Shown here one piece after another: positions 30,976-42,020 of a stretch of 64,000 nt of DNA. The stretch's first letter is position 1. Each line of letters opens with the position of its first letter. The notes beneath the pieces were generated by a model that made no database searches, had not been told where the DNA came from, and was given only the letters and a program-made list of their open reading frames with translations. The translations under genes were made by a program, and so were the position numbers. Source of the stretch: Prochlorococcus sp. MIT 1314 (GTDB taxonomy: Bacteria > Cyanobacteriota > Cyanobacteriia > PCC-6307 > Cyanobiaceae); NCBI RefSeq assembly GCF_034093315.1, contig NZ_CP139300.1, positions 620,001 through 684,000 of the forward strand, read 5' to 3'.

Positions 30976-32514
30976 TTATAAATAAAAACGTAAGAAATAA
31001 TAGCCTAATATATTAGCTATATATACTATCTGGTTTATACAAGCTATGAAGATCAATTGTTTAATAAGGTATTCATCTTGAATAAAATCTGAAATTTTAT
31101 TTTCCAAGATTTTTTTTTGGTTTTGCTTCTTATATTTTTTATAATCAAATAAATCTAAGCTCAAATTCAAAAAGAGTGGTAAAAGAATTATTAATGGTAT
31201 AAAATATCTACCCTGAATATCACTCAAAATTAAATCTCTACCCCAATAGATATAAAAGACATAAAATATTCCAATATAAGTTAAAAGAAAAGATCCACTC
31301 AAAAAAACAAAAATAAAATCTTTAAATTTAATCTGATAGAAATTTAAATTAAAAGATCTTATTTTTTTAATTAATATTTGAAATAGATAGTTTCTTTTTA
31401 AATAAACACAAATAAGAATTAAAAAAAATATATATAAATAGAAAAAAATATAAAATTTATTTGGTAATAATAACCTTGCAATAGGACCATTTCCAAATAC
31501 ACCGTAAATCTCTCTTAACCAACTATCAAACTTGTTTAAATGGGTCAAAAATAATGATTTAATGAATAAATAAATTTCATCAAAATTCTTTAAGTGCTTT
31601 GTACTTTCAAATCCTCTTCTATTAATATACATTTCCTTAACTTTAATTGAAGAGAAATTAATCCAATAAATTGTATTTATAAATCCAGTAATATAAAATC
31701 CACAAAAAAATAATTTAGAAAATTTGTTTTTTAATTTATTTATAAGACTTAAACCTAACCCAATTGTAATAGGAATATAAACCGATTTAGATGTCATTAT
31801 AGACAAGCATATTCCAGCTATAGAAGCAAAAAGAATGGTTTTTTTTGAATTAAGTTTTTTTAATTTTAAAAAGCATAGAGAAAAAAGAGCTGAAGAAGCA
31901 AATACTAAAGAATCGCCAGAAAGAGAAGTTGAAATAAATGTTACTGTAGGCAATGAATATATTAAAACTATTACTGAGTAGGTAAGTTTATCTAAATAAG
32001 TATTTTCAAAATTAATTAATTCTCTTATTAAACAGAAATTAATTATTAACCAGATTATTGCATTTGAAAATCTTAGAGCATAGTAATTAAATAAAAGATT
32101 TTGATTTATTGTTTTAAAAAATCTGAATAAATTTGATTGTAAAAAATAATTATTCCCAGAATATGCAGTAACTAACTGGGCCCCTTTCAAATTTTCTGAA
32201 TAATTATCAAAAAAATAATCTTTTAATTTTAATTTACCTACATCAAACGCCCATGGATTTTTTTGACATTTTAGATTTGCAATACATTCATTTACTAAAC
32301 TATGATCTGAAAAGCCAATCCCAAGATTTATAGTATTTTGCGGTATATAAAGCTCTTTATTTAATTTAGATTCATCATGAATCCTCTGAAAATGATACAT
32401 CTCATCTGGTGCATCAAAAATAGTAATAAGAAGAGAGCCCAGAAGTGTTGAAAGACAAATTATAATTATGAAATATTTTTCTATATAAGTAATGATATTT
32501 TTTATTACTCGCAT
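30976..32514 (-). CDS. DUF2142 membrane protein, GT-C-like
   Basis: A 512-residue protein with ten or more TMs. After TM1 the loop FDAPDEMYHFQRIHD is the DUF2142 signature (PDExxHF), with acidic residues in the first periplasmic loop as in GT-C glycosyltransferases that use polyprenyl-phosphate sugars. A long periplasmic region (about 45-120) and SLSGDSLVFASSALFS follow. The acceptor is unknown. The adjacent GT2 at 29647 could supply the polyprenyl-P-sugar. Start is ATG 32514, 17 bases after the HAD gene stop on the same strand. Confidence 0.72.
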   Translation of the reverse strand: MRVIKNIITYIEKYFIIIICLSTLLGSLLITIFDAPDEMYHFQRIHDESKLNKELYIPQNTINLGIGFSDHSLVNECIANLKCQKNPWAFDVGKLKLKDYFFDNYSENLKGAQLVTAYSGNNYFLQSNLFRFFKTINQNLLFNYYALRFSNAIIWLIINFCLIRELINFENTYLDKLTYSVIVLIYSLPTVTFISTSLSGDSLVFASSALFSLCFLKLKKLNSKKTILFASIAGICLSIMTSKSVYIPITIGLGLSLINKLKNKFSKLFFCGFYITGFINTIYWINFSSIKVKEMYINRRGFESTKHLKNFDEIYLFIKSLFLTHLNKFDSWLREIYGVFGNGPIARLLLPNKFYIFFYLYIFFLILICVYLKRNYLFQILIKKIRSFNLNFYQIKFKDFIFVFLSGSFLLTYIGIFYVFYIYWGRDLILSDIQGRYFIPLIILLPLFLNLSLDLFDYKKYKKQNQKKILENKISDFIQDEYLIKQLIFIACINQIVYIANILGYYFLRFYL

Positions 32515-32531
32515 AAAAAAATTATGGATTT

Positions 32532-33218
32532 TTAATTAGTCTGAATACTAAAGTATAGTTTTTTACTATAGTCAAATCTTATAATATTGGAAACGATTTT
32601 CAACATGTCATTATCTTTGATTGAATCAGTTATAGCAAGAATGAAATTATAATTATTATTATTATATTTATTTTTAATTCTAATAGATTTAGAGTTATAT
32701 TTATTAAGATGCGATTCAAATATATCTATATCTAAAGCTATTAAAGAAAAATTATATTTACTTATAACCTTTTTTAAAAATTGATTGTAGTTGTTGGAAA
32801 CTATAACTATATTAAATCCTAACCTTTTTAATTTATTTAATTTATAAAATAAAGCCTTATTCAAATTATTTTTGTTATTCATTATCATAAATTTATCAAT
32901 TTTATTTATACCAGATATTGATAAAATAACGTTTGATATACAATATTTCAAATAAGGCTTTGGTGAAAATATGAAAAATGTTTTTATTATAGATATGTTA
33001 ATTTCTTTTAGAAAAAAATATAGTAATTTATATATAAATTTAATTTTATTATTTTTCATTATATAAATTACCAAATTTAAGTAGCTATCATTTTTAATTA
33101 AAGTTTTATCATAATCAACAAAAATAAAACCTTTTTTAATAGACTTCTCACATAATCCATTAATCAAATTATCAAATGTAATATTTATATCTCCTGCTGT
33201 ATAACTTTTATTAAACAT
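32532..33218 (-). CDS. HAD-superfamily phosphatase
   Basis: A 228-residue cytoplasmic HAD hydrolase, SerB-like arrangement: motif I FIFVDYDKTLIKND (DxD with Asp35 and Asp37), motif II VIVSNN, and motif III/IV ITDSIKDNDML. The cap insertion (about 50-125) is amphipathic and could sit on the membrane. It is extremely Asn/Lys/Ile-rich. I start at ATG 33218; a TTG at 33221 is one codon upstream. HAD domains of this kind are found fused to, or next to, UbiA-type prenyltransferases that make polyprenyl-phospho-pentose, and a UbiA gene lies one gene away, so a 5'-phosphatase role is plausible. Confidence 0.7.
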   Translation of the reverse strand: MFNKSYTAGDINITFDNLINGLCEKSIKKGFIFVDYDKTLIKNDSYLNLVIYIMKNNKIKFIYKLLYFFLKEINISIIKTFFIFSPKPYLKYCISNVILSISGINKIDKFMIMNNKNNLNKALFYKLNKLKRLGFNIVIVSNNYNQFLKKVISKYNFSLIALDIDIFESHLNKYNSKSIRIKNKYNNNNYNFILAITDSIKDNDMLKIVSNIIRFDYSKKLYFSIQTN

Positions 33219-33271
33219 CAAAGATAAATAAACTTATTTTCATTATAATTCAAAGAAAATATACTACAATT

Positions 33272-34162
33272 TTGACCTCAAATAAATCATTTTCAAGATG
33301 TTGGATTTGTAGTGGAAACAATATATATAAGATAAAAAATACAGATATCAATTTTGATTATCTAAATATGGAAGACTTTCAAATTACAAATTCACAATAT
33401 GGTAAAACTCTTGATTTATATAGATGTAAAAATTGTAATTTCATACAAGCTGCTAAAGCAAGAGATCTTACAAAATATTATGAAAAGATGATTGATGAAG
33501 AATATGAAGAAACTAGGAAAGAAAGATTTTTGCAAGAAGATTATATTATCAAAAAATTCATCCCCTACAACAAATCTGGAAAAAAACTTTTGGATGTAGG
33601 ATGTGGTTCAGGTATTCTTTTAGAAGCAAGTAAAAAGTATCGATTTCAATCAATTGGTATTGAACCTTCAAAATGGTTATTCAAAAAAGCTATTAAAAGA
33701 GGCTTAGATGTAAGGTGTGGAGTCTTAGAAGATATTCCAAATTCACAAAAATTTGATGTTATTACCTTGGCTGATGTTATTGAGCATGTTACAAACCCTA
33801 TGGAAATATTACAGCAGATAAAATCAAGATTAACTCCAGAAGGAATAGGTGTGATAGTTACACCAAATGTAGATTCTTTAATCGCAAAAATACTTAGATG
33901 GAAATGGTGGCATTATCGAGTAGCACATGTAGGTTACTTTTCAAAAAAGACAATCAAACTTGCACTTGAAGATTCTGGTTATCAGGTACTAAGTATTAAA
34001 AATACAAGATGGTTTTTTAGTTTTAATTATCTTGTTAAAAGAATATCTACCTACTTACCCAAATTCATGAGGATTAACAATATACCAATAATTGGCAAGA
34101 AGTTAATTAAACTTAATTTAGGTGATTCGATTATAGTAATATTTAGAAAAGAAAATAATTAA
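33272..34162 (+). CDS. SAM-dependent methyltransferase with N-terminal zinc ribbon
   Basis: A 296-residue class I methyltransferase. Cysteines 10, 13, 52 and 55 (CWIC and CKNC) form a zinc ribbon seen in sugar C- and O-methyltransferases of polysaccharide loci. SAM motif I is KKLLDVGCGSGILLEA, motif II-like IGIEPSKWLFKKA, and ITLADVIEHVTNPMEIL is the usual motif IV helix. The start must be the TTG at 33272, because the first CxxC would be lost from any downstream ATG. A TATAAT-like box at 33244-33249 lies upstream. It is the only plus-strand gene between 29.6 and 42.2 kb and overlaps convergent ubiA-like by four bases. Confidence 0.85.
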   Translation: MTSNKSFSRCWICSGNNIYKIKNTDINFDYLNMEDFQITNSQYGKTLDLYRCKNCNFIQAAKARDLTKYYEKMIDEEYEETRKERFLQEDYIIKKFIPYNKSGKKLLDVGCGSGILLEASKKYRFQSIGIEPSKWLFKKAIKRGLDVRCGVLEDIPNSQKFDVITLADVIEHVTNPMEILQQIKSRLTPEGIGVIVTPNVDSLIAKILRWKWWHYRVAHVGYFSKKTIKLALEDSGYQVLSIKNTRWFFSFNYLVKRISTYLPKFMRINNIPIIGKKLIKLNLGDSIIVIFRKENN

Positions 34163-35136
34163 AGAGGTAAAAATCCTTTCGCAAAAAGTTCTCTCAAGAT
34201 CGGAATTTCAATTTTAAAAAGAATAGGACTAAAGATAATAAAAGCACCAATTGATAATGAGATTAACTTATCAGAAAATATAAAATTAGGATTGTTTATA
34301 ATTTTATCCTTATTAGAAAAAGATATTCTTAAATATTGTGCCATTGCCAAAATAATCAATGGAATTAAAAGACAAAATTCGATTTTATAAATTGAGAAAA
34401 ATATAGTAATAGAAGAAATAGCTCCTAAGCAAAGAATAAATGAAAGAAGAATTAATTTATTTTCTGTATATCTAATTAAGGAAGGACGATATTTCTTCAT
34501 TTCTTTTTTTGAACCCTGCCATGTATGAATTTCGTTTATTCTTTTGCAATTCATTAAAAAATATCCACTTAACCAAACACCTAAAATTAATGTTAATGGC
34601 GGATAGGCATAAGAAACTGCTAACCAACCCGTCATAAATCTAAGAGGATTATTTATAGATTCAGAAAATACATCCAAAAACACTTTATCTTTAAATCTGA
34701 AAGGCAATTGATTATATAAAATCCCATTTATCAATATGCAAAATACAATAATTTTTATTATGAGAATAACCTCATACTTAAATAAAATAGATATTACTAA
34801 TGTTAATAGACAAAAATATGTTGCAAAAACATCAATAAATTGCAATTTACCTAATGGAATAGGCCTCTTCTTTTTTACTGGATGAAATGAGTCTGGTATA
34901 CGATCGCACCATTCATTTAAAACATAATTTGCTGAACTAGCCAAAACTATACTCAAGAGGATTAAGAAAAAATTTATATAATTTATTTCAGTATTAGGAG
35001 CAAAACAAAAACCTAAAAAGGTTCCAAAAAAGAAAAAAATTTGTTTTATTAAATAATCAGGCCTGCAAATTTTATATATATAAATAAGCTTGTTTTTATT
35101 ATTTGACATACTCATTAATAATTTTGATAATATCAT
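34159..35136 (-). CDS. UbiA-family prenyltransferase, polyprenyl-phosphoribose-synthase-like
   Basis: A 325-residue protein with about eight TMs. The first Asp-rich motif reads NEWCDRIPDSFHPVKKKRPIP (residues 74-94, split here as NEWCDRIPD and HPVKKKRP). The D-x3-D followed by HPxKxxRP is the pattern of decaprenyl-phosphate phosphoribosyltransferase (mycobacterial Rv3806c type), which joins PRPP to polyprenyl phosphate; it differs from chlorophyll-, quinone- and haem-type UbiA. The second loop has CKRINEIHTW. Neighbours GtrA, GT-C-like proteins and a HAD phosphatase fit a polyprenyl-phospho-pentose route. The true substrate is inference. Confidence 0.75.
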   Translation of the reverse strand: MILSKLLMSMSNNKNKLIYIYKICRPDYLIKQIFFFFGTFLGFCFAPNTEINYINFFLILLSIVLASSANYVLNEWCDRIPDSFHPVKKKRPIPLGKLQFIDVFATYFCLLTLVISILFKYEVILIIKIIVFCILINGILYNQLPFRFKDKVFLDVFSESINNPLRFMTGWLAVSYAYPPLTLILGVWLSGYFLMNCKRINEIHTWQGSKKEMKKYRPSLIRYTENKLILLSFILCLGAISSITIFFSIYKIEFCLLIPLIILAMAQYLRISFSNKDKIINNPNFIFSDKLISLSIGAFIIFSPILFKIEIPILRELFAKGFLPL

Positions 35137-35198: not shown

Positions 35199-36293
35199 TT
35201 ATACTTTTTGTAAAATTTTAAAATTTTTAGGTAAAAATTGAACAAAAATTAAAAAAGGTAATAAAGGGTATAGATATCTCATATGTGCTGTCCCATAAAG
35301 AGTTGGTAATAATATTGAGAAAGGGAATAACAATATAAGTTTCCTTATTTGAAAATTTTTAAAAATATAAATTAAAAGCCTTATTAAAAGAAAAGAATGA
35401 AAAAATAAAAATGAAATTGTTGTTAATAAATTAATCAAACTATTTGCAGCATATTCAGAAGGCAAGTTCAAGCAATATATAGCTATTGCTTCTCTAGCTC
35501 CTAAATTTAAAATCATATGGATGATCGGAGTAAAAATAAAACTTAATGGCTTACTTATAGTTGGACTTAAAGTGCCCTGTAGAAATTTGTCTATGTTTTC
35601 TAATGAATAACAACCGAAATTTTGAGATATATATTCAACACCATAAAAAACTTGAGAGGAAGTAATAAATATTGTAATTAGAAATAAAGTAAATATCCCT
35701 AGTAATTTAAGTTTCTTGAAATCTCTCTTCAATAAAAAAATTAAGAAAAATTGAATCCATAATAAAGGTATTAGTGCATTCCTAAATAGAGTACTAAATA
35801 CGTTTAAAATAATTGATAAATCTAAAGTATATTTATTAGAATAAAAAATCCATAATGCATAAATTGAAACACCCATAGTTGCAAAAATATTTGAATCTAA
35901 TTTCAAAGAATATAAAGATAGGTAAGGATGTAGAGACAATATGAGAATAAAAAAAATAGAATTCTTCTTAGAAAGAACTTTTATACATAAAAATATAAAA
36001 GGAGTAATTGTAATAAATGAGATTATGAAAGATATAAAGAAAAATTTTAAAGTTAATAAAGTTTCTGAGTTATAACCAATTATCCTTACTAAAAAGCTAT
36101 AAAAAAAATTTGATGAAAAAATATTTAGATCACTTTTACTATAAACTTCTAAATCAGTAAAAGAAAAGATCCTATTATCGTATATTGAAAGAAATTTATA
36201 AACCAGTAAAGAACTTAATGACCTAAAGATCACAAATAAACTTGATAATATGAAAAACTCTTTTAAGAATTCATTCTTTGATCTGATTATCAT
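35199..36293 (-). CDS. Multi-TM membrane protein, GT-C-like
   Basis: A 364-residue protein with about nine TMs and little sequence outside the membrane. After TM1 the loop contains FSFTDLEVYSKSD, an acidic D-x-E motif in the position of the catalytic loop of GT-C glycosyltransferases. HPYLSLYSLKLDSNIFATMG and the C-terminal GTAHMRYLYPLLPFLIF resemble the PMT/ArnT-like tail pattern of such enzymes. No family can be assigned with certainty. It is 62 bases upstream of the UbiA gene in transcription order and 40 bases downstream of gtrA, consistent with use of a polyprenyl-phosphate-linked sugar. Confidence 0.55.
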   Translation of the reverse strand: MIIRSKNEFLKEFFILSSLFVIFRSLSSLLVYKFLSIYDNRIFSFTDLEVYSKSDLNIFSSNFFYSFLVRIIGYNSETLLTLKFFFISFIISFITITPFIFLCIKVLSKKNSIFFILILSLHPYLSLYSLKLDSNIFATMGVSIYALWIFYSNKYTLDLSIILNVFSTLFRNALIPLLWIQFFLIFLLKRDFKKLKLLGIFTLFLITIFITSSQVFYGVEYISQNFGCYSLENIDKFLQGTLSPTISKPLSFIFTPIIHMILNLGAREAIAIYCLNLPSEYAANSLINLLTTISFLFFHSFLLIRLLIYIFKNFQIRKLILLFPFSILLPTLYGTAHMRYLYPLLPFLIFVQFLPKNFKILQKV

Positions 36294-36333: not shown

Positions 36334-36705
36334 TTATTTTCTAAAAACTAGATTTTTTTGACTGACATAAGAGAAAAATGCGAGAAAAGGAATAGCAATT
36401 AAAACCGAGAATAGATACGAAAAACCTAAATTACTTAAAGTTTTTATTAAAAACCATTGTAAAATCCAACTAACTATTACTAGGAGAATGTACTTAATAG
36501 GATTACCTTTTGTTTTGAAGACTCCATATTTATTAGCTAAATAACCCAAATAAGCATGCAAAATCCGACTAATAAAAGTTGATATTCCCAGAGGTAGTAG
36601 ATAAAGCATTAACAAAAGTGACCCATTACTTAAGATAGTTATCAAGCCACCTAATATTACAAATTTAATAAAAGAGTTGGATTTTAGAATTTTTAAATTA
36701 TTCAT
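36334..36705 (-). CDS. gtrA: GtrA-family membrane protein
   Basis: A 123-residue protein with four TMs and the GtrA signature: FIKFVILGGLITILSN in TM1, ISRILHAYLGYLANKYGVFK after TM2, and a C-terminal FFSYVSQKNLVFRK. GtrA proteins are proposed to flip or recruit polyprenyl-phosphate-linked sugars; in mycobacteria a homologue acts in the arabinan pathway near decaprenyl-phosphoribose genes. Here it stands directly before the GT-C-like and UbiA-like genes on the same strand. It is 59 bases after the GNAT-like gene. Confidence 0.88.
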   Translation of the reverse strand: MNNLKILKSNSFIKFVILGGLITILSNGSLLLMLYLLPLGISTFISRILHAYLGYLANKYGVFKTKGNPIKYILLVIVSWILQWFLIKTLSNLGFSYLFSVLIAIPFLAFFSYVSQKNLVFRK

Positions 36706-36764: not shown

Positions 36765-37838
36765 TCAGAAAATATCTAAATCAGCCATATTTATTTTCCA
36801 TTTATTTATATCAAATACTTCAGAAGAAGATTCAGCCTTTGTAATTATAAATAACTCTAATGGAGTTGGTAACAAAAATTTGGGTATTCTGGGAAATAAA
36901 AAATTTGATAAGGGACTTTTTTTTTGTATTGTTCTTAAAAAAAGAAGTAAATCGCACTTTAACTTAATAGTTGAACATATTAAACGTAATAAAATTGTTA
37001 ATTCTATTAAAAAATTCTTTTTAATAAGAACAATTTCCATTATGACTAATACTTCAAAACCATATTTCTCTGTTTTTCTATAAGCAAAATAACCTATTAG
37101 TTTATTATCTAGGAATATGTACTCTATGAAATAGTTTATTGAACTATTTGAATTATATCTCCATTTAATCCATTCTTTACTTCTTTCTCCCTGAATAAGA
37201 TTATCTTGATAATAAGTTTTTATCATTTTTTCGTATTCATCATTTTCAACATCTTTCTTAGAAAATTTTATTTTTGAAATGTGTTGGATTTTTTTATTTA
37301 AAAATGAGATGAAATTATAAGAAAAAGTACTGAGAAAATCTAGATTTATAAAATCTAATTTTTTATCTATTATTGAACTAATTATTGGAATTAATCTTAG
37401 CTCAAGTGATCCAATAGGATTAAGATTTAATATCTTTTTATAAATATTTATAGAAATTTCATTTGGCATCATAATGCTTAAATTTGATTCAGGAATATCT
37501 TTTCTTATAAAAAATTGACTTGTTAGTTTTAAAAAATTCTCCAATTTCCTATTATTTTTATCTATAAGCAAATCGCAGAGATTTGCTCCCTTAATAATCT
37601 TTTTTTTAAAAAAAAAGTTTTTCTTTTGATAGCTAATTCTTGCAATCAATTTATCCTCGCAATATCCATTGATTCCAAAAGATAAACCTCTAGGGTTTTG
37701 CAAATATTTCCATTCCAAATGATTCTCTTGAGATATAGGATTTTTTTTGGGATATTCCGTCTGACTTAATAAAATATATTTTTTTATTATTTGGGTATTT
37801 ATTAATTCTTTAAAAACAATAAATTCTGCTTCTCTCAT
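36765..37838 (-). CDS. GNAT-like acyltransferase, two-domain
   Basis: A 357-residue protein. HLEWKYLQNPRG (about residues 39-50) and SKEWIKWRYNSNSSINYF (about 220-237) are the paired W(K/R)Y-NP elements typical of duplicated GNAT/FemAB-like proteins in polysaccharide loci, each followed by strands such as KLIARISYQ and KLIGYFAYR. The acyl donor pocket cannot be read directly. It is 6 bases downstream of the phosphopantetheinyl transferase on the same strand, so it is a good candidate for the transferase that puts the ACP-borne acyl group on a sugar amine. That role is inference. Confidence 0.6.
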   Translation of the reverse strand: MREAEFIVFKELINTQIIKKYILLSQTEYPKKNPISQENHLEWKYLQNPRGLSFGINGYCEDKLIARISYQKKNFFFKKKIIKGANLCDLLIDKNNRKLENFLKLTSQFFIRKDIPESNLSIMMPNEISINIYKKILNLNPIGSLELRLIPIISSIIDKKLDFINLDFLSTFSYNFISFLNKKIQHISKIKFSKKDVENDEYEKMIKTYYQDNLIQGERSKEWIKWRYNSNSSINYFIEYIFLDNKLIGYFAYRKTEKYGFEVLVIMEIVLIKKNFLIELTILLRLICSTIKLKCDLLLFLRTIQKKSPLSNFLFPRIPKFLLPTPLELFIITKAESSSEVFDINKWKINMADLDIF

Positions 37839-37844
37839 ATTATT

Positions 37845-38483
37845 CTAATATTTACAAATAATAGGTTTTTTTATTCCTAAATTATTATTACATGCTAAAG
37901 AAATATACCAATGCTCATAATTAATAAAAAACGATTTTAGATTAACTCCCTCATACTTATTCTCTAATATATTAGTTCCTAATATAAAATTCCATTTTGA
38001 AAGATCATTGAAAATACTTCCTTTTTGCCACTTGATTGCAGCTTCTTTTCTTACCCAAAGTTTTAAAACCTCTGAATTAATTTCATTATCATTTAAATCC
38101 TTAAGTGTTTTTTTTTCGTTACTCGAAAAAAATCCATTTAGTATTTTTTTAGATTCGAATCGCCTATCTGATCTTTCTATATCTACGCCAATATTCTGCA
38201 TTGACCAACCTATTAGTAAGACATCTTTACAATGACTAAAACTTACATAACCCATCTCAGAAGGTAATTCAGGAGGTAATCCAGGAGGTGATTTTAATGG
38301 TATTTCTAGAGCGGGTATTTCTAAAATATGAGATAAAGCTTCGCGAACATATCCTCTTGAATGTTCATATTGTTTAGCTCTATTTTTAGAAAGTTTTTTT
38401 ATCCATTTTTTTTCCTGTAAAGCTATAGGTTTTAGACAACAATGATTTGGTACAAGGAAAAGTGCAATAATATTTTTTTTCAT
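37845..38483 (-). CDS. 4'-phosphopantetheinyl transferase, Sfp/HetI type
   Basis: Transfers the phosphopantetheine arm of CoA to a serine of a carrier protein. The 212-residue protein has the Sfp motifs: FSHCKDVLLIGW (about 82-93), GVDIER (99-104) with the Mg-binding Asp, and WVRKEAAIKW (143-152). A proline-rich loop at about 56-75 is built of short repeats. The gene is 6 bases upstream of the GNAT-like gene and 104 bases after the SDR, in the same orientation as an island ACP. It may serve that ACP; but its sequence also resembles general picocyanobacterial PPTases, so it could be the cell's main enzyme. Confidence 0.88.
   Translation of the reverse strand: MKKNIIALFLVPNHCCLKPIALQEKKWIKKLSKNRAKQYEHSRGYVREALSHILEIPALEIPLKSPPGLPPELPSEMGYVSFSHCKDVLLIGWSMQNIGVDIERSDRRFESKKILNGFFSSNEKKTLKDLNDNEINSEVLKLWVRKEAAIKWQKGSIFNDLSKWNFILGTNILENKYEGVNLKSFFINYEHWYISLACNNNLGIKKPIICKY
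38260..38323. repeat. Short tandem repeats inside the PPTase gene
   Basis: Three near-identical 12-base units (38260-38271, 38272-38283, 38284-38295) encode the tetrapeptides LPSE, LPPE and SPPG on the minus strand, and GGTATTTCTA occurs twice 15 bases apart (38299-38308, 38314-38323), encoding LEIPA-LEIPL. All units keep the frame, so the loop before the SFSHC motif could expand or shrink without breaking the gene. Confidence 0.8.
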
Positions 38484-38587
38484 TTATTAAATCTATATTA
38501 ATTTGAAAATTTCTTTGGTGAGTTAATCATCAATCCTGATATAAAAAAATTTTTATGATTATAAAATGTCATTTTATAAGATAATTA

Positions 38588-39265
38588 TTATTTTCCTCCA
38601 TTTAATTTAAGTATTTCACCATTATAAAAATCTGATTTTTGTATAAATTTTATAGCATGAATTATGTCATCTGTTACTCCTAGTCTTCTTGAAGATGTAT
38701 TAGAGATAATATTTTTTATTTTTTCTTTATTGAAATTTTCTATTAGTCCTTTTTCAAAGTAACCTAATTCAATTATATTTGAAGTAATTCCAAACCTACC
38801 ATATTCTTTAGAAAGGGTTTTACTATAACCTATAAGAGCTGACTTGCTTGCAGCATAAATCCCAGCTCCTTTAGCTCCTTCATTTCCCACAATAGAAGAA
38901 AAGTGTATTATCCTACCCCATTTTTGATTCAGCATGATTGGGAGAAGTCCTTGTAATAAATATAGGTTTGAAATCAAATTCAATTCGAATGTCTCTCTTA
39001 CTTTTTCTATAGGATAGTTGGCTAGTAAACCATCAAAACTTTGTACAGCAAGATTTAAAACTGTTATTTCATCGAAAGTTTTTCCATATTTACTAATTAA
39101 TTGATCTATCTCATTATGATTAAGAAGATTAACATTTACGCAAATACCTCTAGCATTATTTTCTATTTTCTTTCTATTACTAATAGCTATTACATCATTT
39201 TTTATTGAGAGTTTCTTGAAAAGTTCGAACCCAATTCCACCTGAAGCACCTGTTATAAGAAGCAT
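38588..39265 (-). CDS. SDR family 3-oxoacyl-ACP reductase-like
   Basis: A 225-residue classical short-chain reductase, FabG-like. TGASGGIG (5-12) binds the cofactor, NLAVQ replaces the usual NNAG, FSSIVGNEG carries the catalytic Ser, and Tyr137/Lys141 (YAASK) complete the triad. It is 4 bases downstream of the KAS III gene and follows the ACP, so reduction of a beta-ketoacyl-ACP is the simplest role. A sugar ketoreductase role, such as the second half of a DprE1/DprE2-type epimerase, is the alternative, given the UbiA module nearby; no DprE1 partner is in the window. Confidence 0.8.
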   Translation of the reverse strand: MLLITGASGGIGFELFKKLSIKNDVIAISNRKKIENNARGICVNVNLLNHNEIDQLISKYGKTFDEITVLNLAVQSFDGLLANYPIEKVRETFELNLISNLYLLQGLLPIMLNQKWGRIIHFSSIVGNEGAKGAGIYAASKSALIGYSKTLSKEYGRFGITSNIIELGYFEKGLIENFNKEKIKNIISNTSSRRLGVTDDIIHAIKFIQKSDFYNGEILKLNGGK

Positions 39266-39269
39266 ATAA

Positions 39270-40244
39270 TTACCACCTAATAATTGTTGATCCTAATGAA
39301 TATCCAACTCCAAAACCTATAATTAAAACCTTGTTACCCGGTATTAATTTTTTTTCTAAAAAGGCATCCTTCAATGCAATAGGAATTGAACAAGAAACGG
39401 TATTACCTTTTTTATCTAAATTAGAATATGTTTTATGTTTTTCTATCCCAATTTTTTCACACAATAAATCTAATACCAATTTACTTGCTTGATGAAATAC
39501 AAAAAGATCAATATCTTTTAGGTTTAAACCATTATTGTTTAAAGTTTTTTCTAAAAGTATAGGTACTTGACTAAGCGTAAATAACAAAATTGCAGGGCCA
39601 TTCATAAAAAGTTCTTGTTTATTACGCTCCAAATTATCTCTTGCACCGCTTCCTTCAACAATTAATTCTTTAGCTCCTTTTCCATCACATCCAAATGTAA
39701 AATTACCTATAGAAGATGAACTATTATTTTTTTCTAAAAGACAAGCTGATGATGCATCGCTAAAAATCATTTTATTTGTTCGGTCATTTTTATTGATGAA
39801 CTTAGAATAAGTTTCTGCACAGAGGATTAGACAATTATTAATAGCTTTAGATTGCAATAATGAAGAGGCAACTGCGAGTGAATTTACAAATCCGGAACAA
39901 CCTAGGTTTATATCTAAAGCAAGGATATCATTACTCATGCAAAGCTTCTCCTGCAAAATACAAGAAGAAGGGGGTAAAGCATAATCTGGAGTTTGAGAAA
40001 TAAATAATAATGCATCTATTTCTTGAGGCTTTAAATCGAATTCTTTAAATAAATTCTTACATGCCATAAATCCTAAATCCAGGCTCGTCTCATCTTTATT
40101 AGCAATATATCTTTGGAAAATACCAGTTTTTTCTTGAACTTTCTCAATATCCCAATCAGGATGTAAAGATCTTAGTTGATCATTAGTTTGAACATTTTTG
40201 GGTAAGTAATAACTTATTTTCCGTATACTTAAGCCTTTGCTCAT
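39270..40244 (-). CDS. 3-oxoacyl-ACP synthase III-like (KAS III)
   Basis: A 324-residue thiolase-fold condensing enzyme, close in length to FabH. The Cys-His-Asn triad is intact: Cys116 in NLGCSGFVNSLA, His251 in FVFHQASKLV, and Asn281 in KKGNTVSCSIPIAL; the C-terminal LIIGFGVGYSLG loop is also present. FabH-type enzymes join an acyl-CoA to malonyl-ACP. Being in a polysaccharide island beside its own ACP and reductase, it is probably not the housekeeping FabH. It begins 6 bases after the ACP gene stop and ends 4 bases before the SDR start. Confidence 0.9.
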   Translation of the reverse strand: MSKGLSIRKISYYLPKNVQTNDQLRSLHPDWDIEKVQEKTGIFQRYIANKDETSLDLGFMACKNLFKEFDLKPQEIDALLFISQTPDYALPPSSCILQEKLCMSNDILALDINLGCSGFVNSLAVASSLLQSKAINNCLILCAETYSKFINKNDRTNKMIFSDASSACLLEKNNSSSSIGNFTFGCDGKGAKELIVEGSGARDNLERNKQELFMNGPAILLFTLSQVPILLEKTLNNNGLNLKDIDLFVFHQASKLVLDLLCEKIGIEKHKTYSNLDKKGNTVSCSIPIALKDAFLEKKLIPGNKVLIIGFGVGYSLGSTIIRW

Positions 40245-40250
40245 AGAATT

Positions 40251-40493
40251 TTAATCTTTAAATAAATTATTTGATTTTAATACTTCTTTAATGGAGGATA
40301 TGCTGGTAGCTTTAGATAATTCCTTTATATTGGAACATTTTCCATCTAATACTTGATCTAATTTCACAAGGATAGATAAATGCCCAAGAGAATCCCATAA
40401 AGAATACCAATCTTCATCTCCACTAATTATGGTACCTTTTTTTAATTCTAAAGCTTTTTCAATTATTTCTATAAGTTCTTTTTCTTCTAACAT
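40251..40493 (-). CDS. Acyl carrier protein
   Basis: An 80-residue acidic helical protein with the phosphopantetheine attachment motif DSLGHLSIL, Ser35 being the modified residue. The four-helix pattern, with LEEKELIEIIEKALEL as helix 1 and ISSIKEVLKSN as helix 4, fits a carrier protein. It is divergent from housekeeping AcpP, which has the motif GADSLDTVE. It lies 4 bases after the methyltransferase and 6 bases before KAS III, so it is the natural carrier for that enzyme. Confidence 0.88.
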   Translation of the reverse strand: MLEEKELIEIIEKALELKKGTIISGDEDWYSLWDSLGHLSILVKLDQVLDGKCSNIKELSKATSISSIKEVLKSNNLFKD

Positions 40494-40497
40494 GAAA

Positions 40498-41217
40498 TTA
40501 CTTAGCAGAGTATATATCAGTCCAACATATCAATTGACCAAACTTTTGACAATAGTCAATGTAACCCTCTTTTTTGAGTTTTTCTAAATTTTCAAAGTTT
40601 CTACTTAAATCCTCTGGAAGAAACCACTCATTGTGTGAAATTTTTTTGATATCTTTGAAATTATTTTCTGCTATTTCAATAATTTTCTTTGTATTTGATA
40701 GAGATATTACTGGAAAGAATATTTTTCCATTTTTATTTAAAAATTTTCTTGATCGATTTAGTACTTTTTCGATATTTGATGTCCCATCAATACCTGCATC
40801 GCAAGGAACATTTTCAAACCAGTCGGAAAGTTTAGCAACTTCCTCAGAAATTCCAGAAATATCGTCAACTATGACGTCAAATTTATATCCATTCCAATTA
40901 GAAAAGATATTTGATTTGATTGCTTCACCTTCACAATTGTTTAATTTAATATTTAATTTTGCAACCTTTACCGCATCATTAGAAATATCAGAACAATAAA
41001 TTTTATTGGCTTTATTCAGTTTTGATAAAGATATGCCTACAATTCCATTGCCACAGCCTAAATCCAACAATTTATCAACTTTACTTATACTAGAAGCAAC
41101 CGCTGATATTAGAAAATCTGAAGTTGCTGTAGGAGCAAAAACATTATCATTTGTATTTAATAAGATTTTTATGTTTTCATTACATTTAGGTATATATTCG
41201 ATTTCTTTATAAGGCAT
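40498..41217 (-). CDS. Class I SAM methyltransferase, HemK/RsmC-like fold
   Basis: A 239-residue methyltransferase: motif I KLLDLGCGNGIVGISL, IYCSDISNDAVKVAKLN as the second strand-loop, and FDVIVDDISGISEE in the place of the NPPY motif of HemK-type N-methyltransferases. The lack of NPPY argues against glutamine or adenine N-methylation and for a small-molecule, acyl or sugar substrate. Its stop lies 4 bases before the ACP start on the same strand, tying it to the acyl module. FAPTATSDFLISAV near residue 27 is the usual N-terminal element of MTS-type enzymes. Confidence 0.75.
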   Translation of the reverse strand: MPYKEIEYIPKCNENIKILLNTNDNVFAPTATSDFLISAVASSISKVDKLLDLGCGNGIVGISLSKLNKANKIYCSDISNDAVKVAKLNIKLNNCEGEAIKSNIFSNWNGYKFDVIVDDISGISEEVAKLSDWFENVPCDAGIDGTSNIEKVLNRSRKFLNKNGKIFFPVISLSNTKKIIEIAENNFKDIKKISHNEWFLPEDLSRNFENLEKLKKEGYIDYCQKFGQLICWTDIYSAK

Positions 41218-41291
41218 TTAATTATTAGATTGAAGAATATAATTTTATAAGGTAAACATTAATTCAAATCAAACAAATTAGAAATTTTAAC

Positions 41292-42020
41292 TTAATATTG
41301 AATATATTCTAACCAAGAAGATTTTTTAAGACCTCGATAAGTTTGATATAAAGGCCTTTTGGGAATCATTCTTAAAATATATTCAAGGGATAAATTATCT
41401 GCAACAATCATAAAATTAAGGTCTCTTAGAATATAAGCAATAAATAAAGAAGGCAATAGAAGTAACCATGAAAAATATTGACTTTTGTAAGCAACTAAAA
41501 TCGTTTTAATAAATCTTGAAAAACCTTTTAATGTAAAACTAAAGAAATATCTATGATCAATAAATAAACCTTTAGGAATGCCACATCTAAATAAATTAGG
41601 AAAAATACTCATGCTTCTGTAAGTGGAATAAAGAAGTATTTTTGAATTAAAATTTTTAGTTTCTTTACATTTTAATAAAGCAGCCGTTACTGTATCGTGA
41701 TCTTGATGACCGCCTTCTATAAGAGGTGAAAGAATTAAATCATAATCAAACAAGATTGTTAAAAAATATTTCTTTAAGCTCACAAAATCAATATGATATA
41801 AGGAATCAATAAATTTAATATCTTTTGGTAAAGTAATAAAATTTAGCTTATTGATCTTTGATGAAATCGAAGTCTCTTTTTGCCTTAATTTATCAGATCC
41901 TATTAATAATAGATCTATTTCTTTGAAACAATTTTCGAGTGAATAAATTAATCCAAAAGTAAATAATTCATCATCAGCATGTGGACAAATAATTAAGGTT
42001 CTTTCAAAAGATTTTTTCAC
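41292..42020 (-). CDS. PIG-L family de-N-acetylase
   Basis: A 242-residue zinc-dependent amidase of the LmbE/PIG-L family: CPHADDELF (HADDE at 14-18, variant of AHPDDE) and GGHQDHD (HQDH at 105-108) provide the zinc ligands and catalytic Asp. Members remove acetyl from GlcNAc-containing glycolipids or sugar nucleotides. The C-terminal part (about 175-200) has a hydrophobic stretch. Start is GTG 42020. It is the first gene of the minus-strand block 42.0-34.2 kb; a free amine produced here would be a natural acceptor for the acyl module. Confidence 0.82.
   Translation of the reverse strand: MKKSFERTLIICPHADDELFTFGLIYSLENCFKEIDLLLIGSDKLRQKETSISSKINKLNFITLPKDIKFIDSLYHIDFVSLKKYFLTILFDYDLILSPLIEGGHQDHDTVTAALLKCKETKNFNSKILLYSTYRSMSIFPNLFRCGIPKGLFIDHRYFFSFTLKGFSRFIKTILVAYKSQYFSWLLLLPSLFIAYILRDLNFMIVADNLSLEYILRMIPKRPLYQTYRGLKKSSWLEYIQY

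Follow-up and report, generated by a model that had tools for sequence, protein, structure and literature searches.

Seven genes among the surface-glycan genes of a Prochlorococcus genome read like a small pathway for making, activating and transferring an acyl chain. What would such a pathway make, and why does it include a phosphopantetheinyl transferase (PPTase)? We addressed these questions for positions 36765–42020 of a 64,000-nucleotide stretch of DNA (the window; C1:620001–684000, contig NZ_CP139300.1) from Prochlorococcus sp. MIT 1314, a closed genome of 1,704,447 bases in one contig. Genomes are given G-numbers, this one being G000, and fetched loci are given L-numbers. The explanation that we favour, with a probability of roughly 0.6, is that the seven genes form an acyl-ACP (acyl carrier protein) module of the glycan region, and that PPTase function was taken over from a core locus by an accessory locus. 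The PPTase of the block appears, from homology searches, to be the cell's only working copy, and it is probably more than a dedicated accessory.

A seven-gene acyl block within a surface-glycan region

The block lies inside a surface-glycan region that starts at ~12.9 kb of the window, with a tRNA-Arg gene just ahead of it, and runs to ~63 kb. This region encodes mainly sugar-nucleotide enzymes, glycosyltransferases (family 2 enzymes among those identified in the window by Pfam-type scans) and an O-antigen polymerase/ligase-type protein, along with many proteins that fall into no family. Prochlorococcus islands of this kind are hypervariable, and the neighbours of the block differ among genomes G203, G204 and G185.

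An earlier note on this DNA had described seven minus-strand open reading frames (ORFs) with several gaps of 4–6 bases. All seven are present on that strand, and four of the gaps are of that size (methyltransferase–ACP, 4; ACP–KAS III, 6; KAS III–reductase, 4; PPTase–GNAT-like gene, 6), with two wider gaps of 74 bases between the PIG-L and methyltransferase genes and 104 bases between the reductase and PPTase genes. The first gene in the direction of transcription (41292–42020, GTG start) encodes a PIG-L-like de-N-acetylase with HADDE and HQDH motifs, whose match to PF02585 (E = 3.3e-4) falls below the family cut-off. It is followed by a HemK/PrmC-like methyltransferase (40498–41217) that lacks NPPY, which we take to be the HemK/PrmC motif. 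The ACP (40251–40493) has Ser35 in WDSLGHL; it gave no PF00550 match in a Pfam scan, aligns with other carrier proteins, and has a 75% identical counterpart in G204. Next come a FabH-like 3-oxoacyl-ACP synthase III (KAS III; 39270–40244), with KAS III family matches and Cys116/His251/Asn281, and a FabG-like short-chain dehydrogenase/reductase (SDR) of 225 aa (38588–39265), with family matches and Tyr137/Lys141, that scores E = 3.7e-35 against TIGR01830, yet under the family cut-off. The block ends with an Sfp-type PPTase (37845–38483) and a two-domain GNAT-like protein that is the candidate acyltransferase (36765–37838). The catalytic residues that the earlier note had assigned to KAS III and the SDR, and the serine it had assigned to the ACP, are all in place.

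The KAS III and the FabH of the same genome share 29% identity, indicating that the KAS III is not a recent copy of this core enzyme, from which it is distinct. The best relative of the KAS III among solved structures is 3gwa (E = 5e-66). Because the genes follow one another in the same order in G203 and G204, as far as those contigs extend, and because the ratio of nonsynonymous to synonymous substitution rates (dN/dS) is 0.08–0.31 over 11 island gene pairs, which do not include the methyltransferase or PIG-L, we regard the block as more than a chance assembly.

The island PPTase appears to be the only intact copy in this genome

The PPTase found by homology sits, in most Prochlorococcus genomes, between an AAA-ATPase gene and bcp, as seen by direct inspection of 32 genomes. 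At this position in G000, outside the window (C1:1243674–1244315; L118), the core PPTase is a pseudogene with 11 in-frame stops in the matched stretch (3 TGA, 2 TAG and 6 TAA), and the flanking AAA-ATPase and bcp genes are intact. Searches of G000 with PF01648, the HetI family and the core protein at E ≤ 10, and with a 15-row profile at E ≤ 0.01, found no intact PPTase beyond the one at 37845–38483 of the window. That gene matches PF01648 (E = 1.1e-10), and its motifs are intact (GVDIE at 99, and WVRKEA), fitting the Sfp-type signature of PF01648 with GxDxE and W/KEA; the last of these names a PPTase group (PMC5605751, in excerpt).

Attempts to delete the PPTase of Synechocystis failed, and foreign Sfp-type enzymes loaded the fatty-acid ACP in vivo (PMC5605751, in excerpt). 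If PPTase is equally undeletable here, the island enzyme of G000 must serve fatty-acid synthesis, and by this analogy it would be essential in G000. Since the housekeeping gene is a pseudogene, the island PPTase would have to activate the core fatty-acid ACP, encoded at C1:1034968–1035171, as a second role. The earlier note had assigned this enzyme to activation of the island ACP; we keep that role in our proposal, but the enzyme is probably more than a dedicated accessory, this being the sole intact PPTase found in G000.

In a tree of PPTases, the window protein groups with those of G185 and G203, and next with that of G287. The sampled non-core PPTases are diverse, that of G136 being sister to the core clade. 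We found no relative of the PPTase in phages, and none was confirmed among viral contigs. Locus L087 of G185 is the same island as that of the window, with a PPTase between the GtrA and RfbC genes; it lacks PIG-L, the methyltransferase, ACP, KAS III, SDR and GNAT genes, and G185 has an intact core PPTase. Three PPTases detected with PF01648, in G158, G277 and G405, were considered as second copies and set aside, since blastp at E 1e-3 did not match them to the PPTase of the window; that of G158, the one of the three that was aligned, is 17% identical to it. At L078 (G158), a different, AcpS-like PPTase adjoins an 811-aa AMP-binding protein. A PF01648 match in G298 proved to be the core gene of that genome.

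Core PPTase decay coincides with a further PPTase gene across the genus

We surveyed 266 Prochlorococcus genomes, mostly draft or single-cell-like assemblies. The core PPTase protein was matched at 1e-5 in 218 of them. Setting aside 18 genomes with a decayed, partial or only non-core match (G000, G136, G197, G203, G204, G206, G207, G210, G212, G214, G260, G271, G287, G318, G369, G376, G391 and G394) left 200 with a core match at E ≤ 1.9e-66; stops were read for the strongest core matches only. Core decay was visible in 11 genomes (G000, G136, G204, G206, G210, G212, G287, G318, G369, G391 and G394). Each of these 11 also has a further PPTase gene, which in G204 is frameshifted, as compared with 8 of the 200 genomes with a strong core match (G185, G188, G240, G249, G305, G309, G350 and G352; Fisher p 1.1e-13, in a test that ignores kinship). 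Ten of the 11 decayed genomes retain, between the AAA-ATPase gene and bcp, a core remnant close to normal length, and the remnant in G204 is 168 bases long. Every genome with an island KAS III (8/8) has a non-core PPTase (p 6e-10). We use the term island copy for a further PPTase gene beside which glycan genes were seen, a setting not established for several of the further copies. One PF01648 scan missed the PPTase of at least one genome, G350, which another search found, so absence in such scans is not proof.

On a tree of the two genes flanking the core PPTase in 32 genomes, the decayed state changes 10 times, with at least 6 changes forced by supported branches; the tree does not tell the direction of change. 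Shuffled labels change as often, indicating that decay is scattered over the tree. It seems that accessory loci have repeatedly taken over an essential function from the core locus, and G185 and the seven other genomes with both PPTase genes look like stages at which the core gene is still present. We propose that a PPTase of broad range comes in with an acyl module or is recruited by it, that the core gene would then become redundant and decay, and that the accessory copy would thereby be fixed.

The acyl cassette recurs within and beyond the genus

The KAS III was detected at E ≤ 1e-45 in 8 of the 266 Prochlorococcus genomes. In G203 and G204 it is 83% identical to that of the window, and L184, also from Prochlorococcus, carries the same 83% identical protein. 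The order ACP-KAS III-SDR-PPTase-GNAT-GtrA is kept in both G203 and G204 as far as the contigs run. The methyltransferase gene is also present in G204, cut by the contig end, and the G203 contig stops before it; the position of PIG-L lies beyond the contig ends of both. Five further Prochlorococcus genomes have a KAS III (36–41% identical), an ACP and a PPTase in other settings. G391 (L064) and G212 (L065) have a KAS-ACP-KAS-SDR-hexapeptide module with a Rieske protein, close to that of Burkholderia glumae pBGF3.

Outside the genus, we scanned genome contigs with a KAS III alignment and typed the contents of the best 80 loci with scripts. An alignment was needed for these contigs; as a query, the window protein alone returned nothing from genome contigs or viral contigs. 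Among the best 80 loci, an ACP was found at 55, a viosamine-type SDR at 41, a hexapeptide protein at 33, a VioA-like protein at 31, a second KAS III at 19 and a PPTase at 2, one of which is L184. Besides L184, methyltransferase, ACP, KAS III and SDR genes occur together at 4 of these 80 loci, with identities to the window proteins of 36–52%: L185 (SAR116), L226 (SAR86), and L193 and L203 (both Omnitrophota). For L185, the identities are 44% (methyltransferase), 52% (ACP), 52% (KAS III) and 49% (SDR). The presence of the methyltransferase beside ACP, KAS III and a short SDR at all four loci indicates that it is a fixed component of this type of cassette, and that the PPTase is not. Whether the genes are found together elsewhere was a point on which the earlier note had staked its proposal, and the methyltransferase/ACP/KAS III/SDR string does recur, in Prochlorococcus, SAR116, SAR86 and Omnitrophota.

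Two other sets of KAS III matches were discarded. Most of those in a 151-genome family search are apparently core FabH (identity near 30%, one per genome in most genomes), and the 21 phage records with a match, all less than 60% identical (23–34% for the 20 listed) and mostly unannotated, gave no lead. In G123, from another genus of the family, a fragment at C1:222044–222226 is 46% identical to KAS III residues 7–67 and contains one stop; it is perhaps a remnant of such a module. A literature search, with most subscription journals outside its reach, found no report of a displaced PPTase in Prochlorococcus or of this cassette in cyanobacteria.

Acyl transfer and the source of the amine

The best reading of the block, supported by its gene content and relatives, is an acyl-ACP module that would N-acylate a surface amino sugar. 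The island PPTase would add phosphopantetheine to the island ACP, KAS III would join a short acyl-CoA with malonyl-ACP, and the SDR would reduce the 3-oxo group. The most likely product of these steps is a short 3-hydroxyacyl-ACP, whose acyl group would be moved by the GNAT-like protein to an amine that PIG-L exposes on an N-acetylhexosamine, following a logic like that of Nod factors. The methyltransferase may methylate either the acyl chain or the sugar.

Searched alone, the GNAT-like protein matched no GNAT profile in Pfam and, as a single sequence, no solved structure. An iterative profile search over the ORFs of 92 loci identified homologues directly after KAS III in L198, L212 and L257, after the SDR in L203, and more distantly placed in L219 and, weakly, in L229. 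PF13527 (GNAT) is matched by 5 of the 7 rows of the resulting family alignment (best 5.3e-7), and the family profile gave GNAT matches among solved structures at E 0.028 and weaker only. GNAT-type proteins also come after the SDR in L185 and L186. No relative of the window protein was found on plasmids.

De-N-acetylases adjoin modules of this kind in four places: PIG-L proteins in the window and in G206, and polysaccharide deacetylases in G305 and L203. These are cases among the loci whose neighbours were scanned, and they do not give a rate. At L186, a DegT-type aminotransferase adjoins the ACP instead of a de-N-acetylase. Among 59 scanned window proteins there was no match to PF01041 (the VioA-type aminotransferase family), in a search confined to these proteins. 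Nor was there a hexapeptide (VioB-like) match among the 59, although five of the scans used limits of 1e-5 to 1e-3, at which weak matches could be missed. A source of the amine beside a GNAT protein and an acyl-ACP module suggests N-acylation. The earlier note had likewise predicted an acyl-ACP module for an N-acyl sugar, and the KAS III-ACP-reductase clusters, the GNAT and de-N-acetylase neighbours and the viosamine precedent described below speak for it.

Relationship to characterised systems

The viosamine island of Pseudomonas syringae pv. tabaci 6605 comprises vioA, vioM, vioT, vioS (KAS III), vioB, vioR and acp, and the glycosylation island of P. aeruginosa PAK is homologous to it; in P. 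syringae, modified viosamine, a 4-amino sugar with a 3-hydroxybutyryl amide, requires vioR, and its methyl group requires vioM (PMC3927599, in excerpt). As far as that excerpt describes the island, the window resembles it in having KAS III, ACP, reductase and methyltransferase genes within one glycan island, and two features of the viosamine module are found in the window: a KAS III adjoining a dedicated ACP (6-base gap) and a 3-oxoacyl-ACP reductase in the same cluster. By contrast, the window has a GNAT-like protein where the island has VioB, it has PIG-L and a PPTase and no VioA-type aminotransferase among its scanned proteins, its methyltransferase is HemK/PrmC-like, and its reductase has 225 aa as compared with 253 for VioR. 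The acyl part of the block would thus be a variant of a characterised viosamine-type pathway, and not wholly new. The novelty that the earlier note saw in the gene set, knowing of no such described pathway in cyanobacteria, finds no support, given the description of the type in Pseudomonas and the similar KAS-ACP-KAS-SDR-hexapeptide modules of G391 and G212 in Prochlorococcus itself; overall, its interpretation holds in part.

On B. glumae pBGF3, the order is vioA-KAS III-ACP-(KAS III-like ORF)-SDR-acetyltransferase-Rieske, beside flagellar genes. A KAS III (35% identical) adjoining an ACP in a glycosylation setting is shared with the window, whereas the extra KAS III-like ORF, VioA and the Rieske protein are not, and pBGF3 resembles G391 and G212 rather than the window.

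NodB, NodE and NodF have roles in Nod-factor acylation. The likeness of the block to that system is in logic only: de-N-acetylation, an ACP and a KAS dedicated to the pathway, transfer of an acyl group onto the exposed amine, and a methyltransferase. The Nod proteins, as far as they are described in excerpt, are analogues and not homologues of those in the window, namely PIG-L, KAS III and a GNAT-like protein that showed no match to NodA; the SAR116 relative alone gave a NodA match, which was non-significant (E 0.058). Nod-factor acylation uses NodB, NodA, NodF/NodE and NodS (PMC5080398, in excerpt). Partial precedent for the PPTase comes from the Escherichia coli pks island, where ClbA, an island-borne Sfp-type enzyme, can substitute for the core EntD (PMC3708854, in excerpt) and is thus capable of core PPTase work. 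The situation in G000 differs in that the core gene has decayed and the island enzyme should serve fatty-acid synthesis.

Weighing the explanation against its alternatives

Several observations weigh against the explanation that we favour. The link between PPTase and ACP is not a strict one: G185 retains the island PPTase without the acyl module, and among 21 non-core PPTase loci that were fetched, some of them on short contigs, an ACP was detected at 11; 8 of those 11 ACPs had gone into building the search profile. G204, whose core PPTase is a remnant and whose island PPTase is frameshifted, has no intact copy, and neither protein nor profile searches found a PPTase in G262, G268, G272 and G301, which are 91–99% complete. 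G235 has one TAG in one core match, none in a shorter match, and no second copy, and other slightly damaged core genes, in genomes lacking a second copy, may have escaped notice among the weaker core matches. Across independent pairs on the tree, a further PPTase never opposes decay, with a median p of 0.25 in an underpowered comparison. PPTase dN/dS is 0.28–0.31 for island copies and 0.13–0.17 for core copies. In the acyl pathway, PIG-L scores 21.6 bits against a Pfam cut-off of 28.2, predicted structures of the GNAT-like protein were unusable (mean pLDDT 38.1 and 39.6), and a Deinococcus GNAT of similar length beside a KAS-ACP pair, tried as a relative, gave nothing in a profile comparison.

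For the PPTase, the alternative is that the island enzyme serves the island ACP only, with a divergent, undetected PPTase loading the fatty-acid ACP. The four well-assembled genomes without any PPTase match, and the PPTase of G350 overlooked by a PF01648 scan, make such an enzyme conceivable, but it would leave the 11/11 link of core decay with a further PPTase unexplained, and three queries at E ≤ 10 and one profile at E ≤ 0.01 agree on one intact copy in G000; we consider it quite improbable. That core decay is an assembly error is far less credible still: although most of the surveyed genomes are draft or single-cell-like, and the G391 core PPTase has two stops only, G000 is a single closed contig with 11 stops between intact neighbours, and remnants persist between the same two genes in the decayed genomes, at near-normal length in all except G204.

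The product of the module might instead be a small secreted metabolite or lipid, and KAS III-ACP pairs do adjoin nonribosomal peptide synthetase-like genes in two Deinococcus plasmids and occur with a 1580–1590-aa ORF at the cyanobacterial loci L067 and L068. The sugar-nucleotide, glycosyltransferase and O-antigen polymerase-type genes around the block, the PIG-L, GNAT and GtrA genes within it, and the position of the P. syringae precedent, as excerpted, in a glycan cluster make this alternative unlikely. Somewhat easier to entertain, if doubtful, is an ester-linked acyl group or an amine made elsewhere, with PIG-L outside the pathway. PIG-L is weak by Pfam and stands 74 bases off, and the G203 and G204 contigs end before its position; against this, G206, G305 and L203 also have de-N-acetylases next to related modules, and no PF01041-type aminotransferase is among the 59 scanned window proteins. 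The acyl-ACP module with PPTase takeover is the explanation that we favour for the block.

Genes adjoining the block

Downstream of the GNAT-like gene on the minus strand are genes for a GtrA-like membrane protein (36334–36705), which accompanies the block in G203 and G204 as well, and for a membrane protein of no clear Pfam family that is a possible glycosyltransferase (35199–36293), kept in G203 and G185 and not seen in G204. Further along, at 30976–35136, is a group of genes for a UbiA-type protein with resemblance to decaprenyl-phosphate phosphoribosyltransferase, for a HAD-like protein and for a DUF2142 membrane protein. This set, which is also present in G185 (L087), may make and use a lipid-linked pentose.

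Implications for Prochlorococcus

The sugar coat of Prochlorococcus, a very abundant organism, is a main surface that phages and grazers meet. If the proposed pathway operates, this surface would bear an undescribed acyl sugar. If the proposed takeover is correct, an essential enzyme would have shifted several times from a fixed core position to accessory loci, tying primary lipid synthesis to surface-glycan islands and limiting which islands can be swapped. We suggest more tentatively, as a possibility that we rate below even odds, that islands repeatedly take over an essential function, with the PPTase in the part of a non-toxic addiction gene, which would fix islands and could outlast its module, as in G185. 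Loss of the island would then kill the cell, and a dispensable block of genes would have a toxin-free way to become indispensable.

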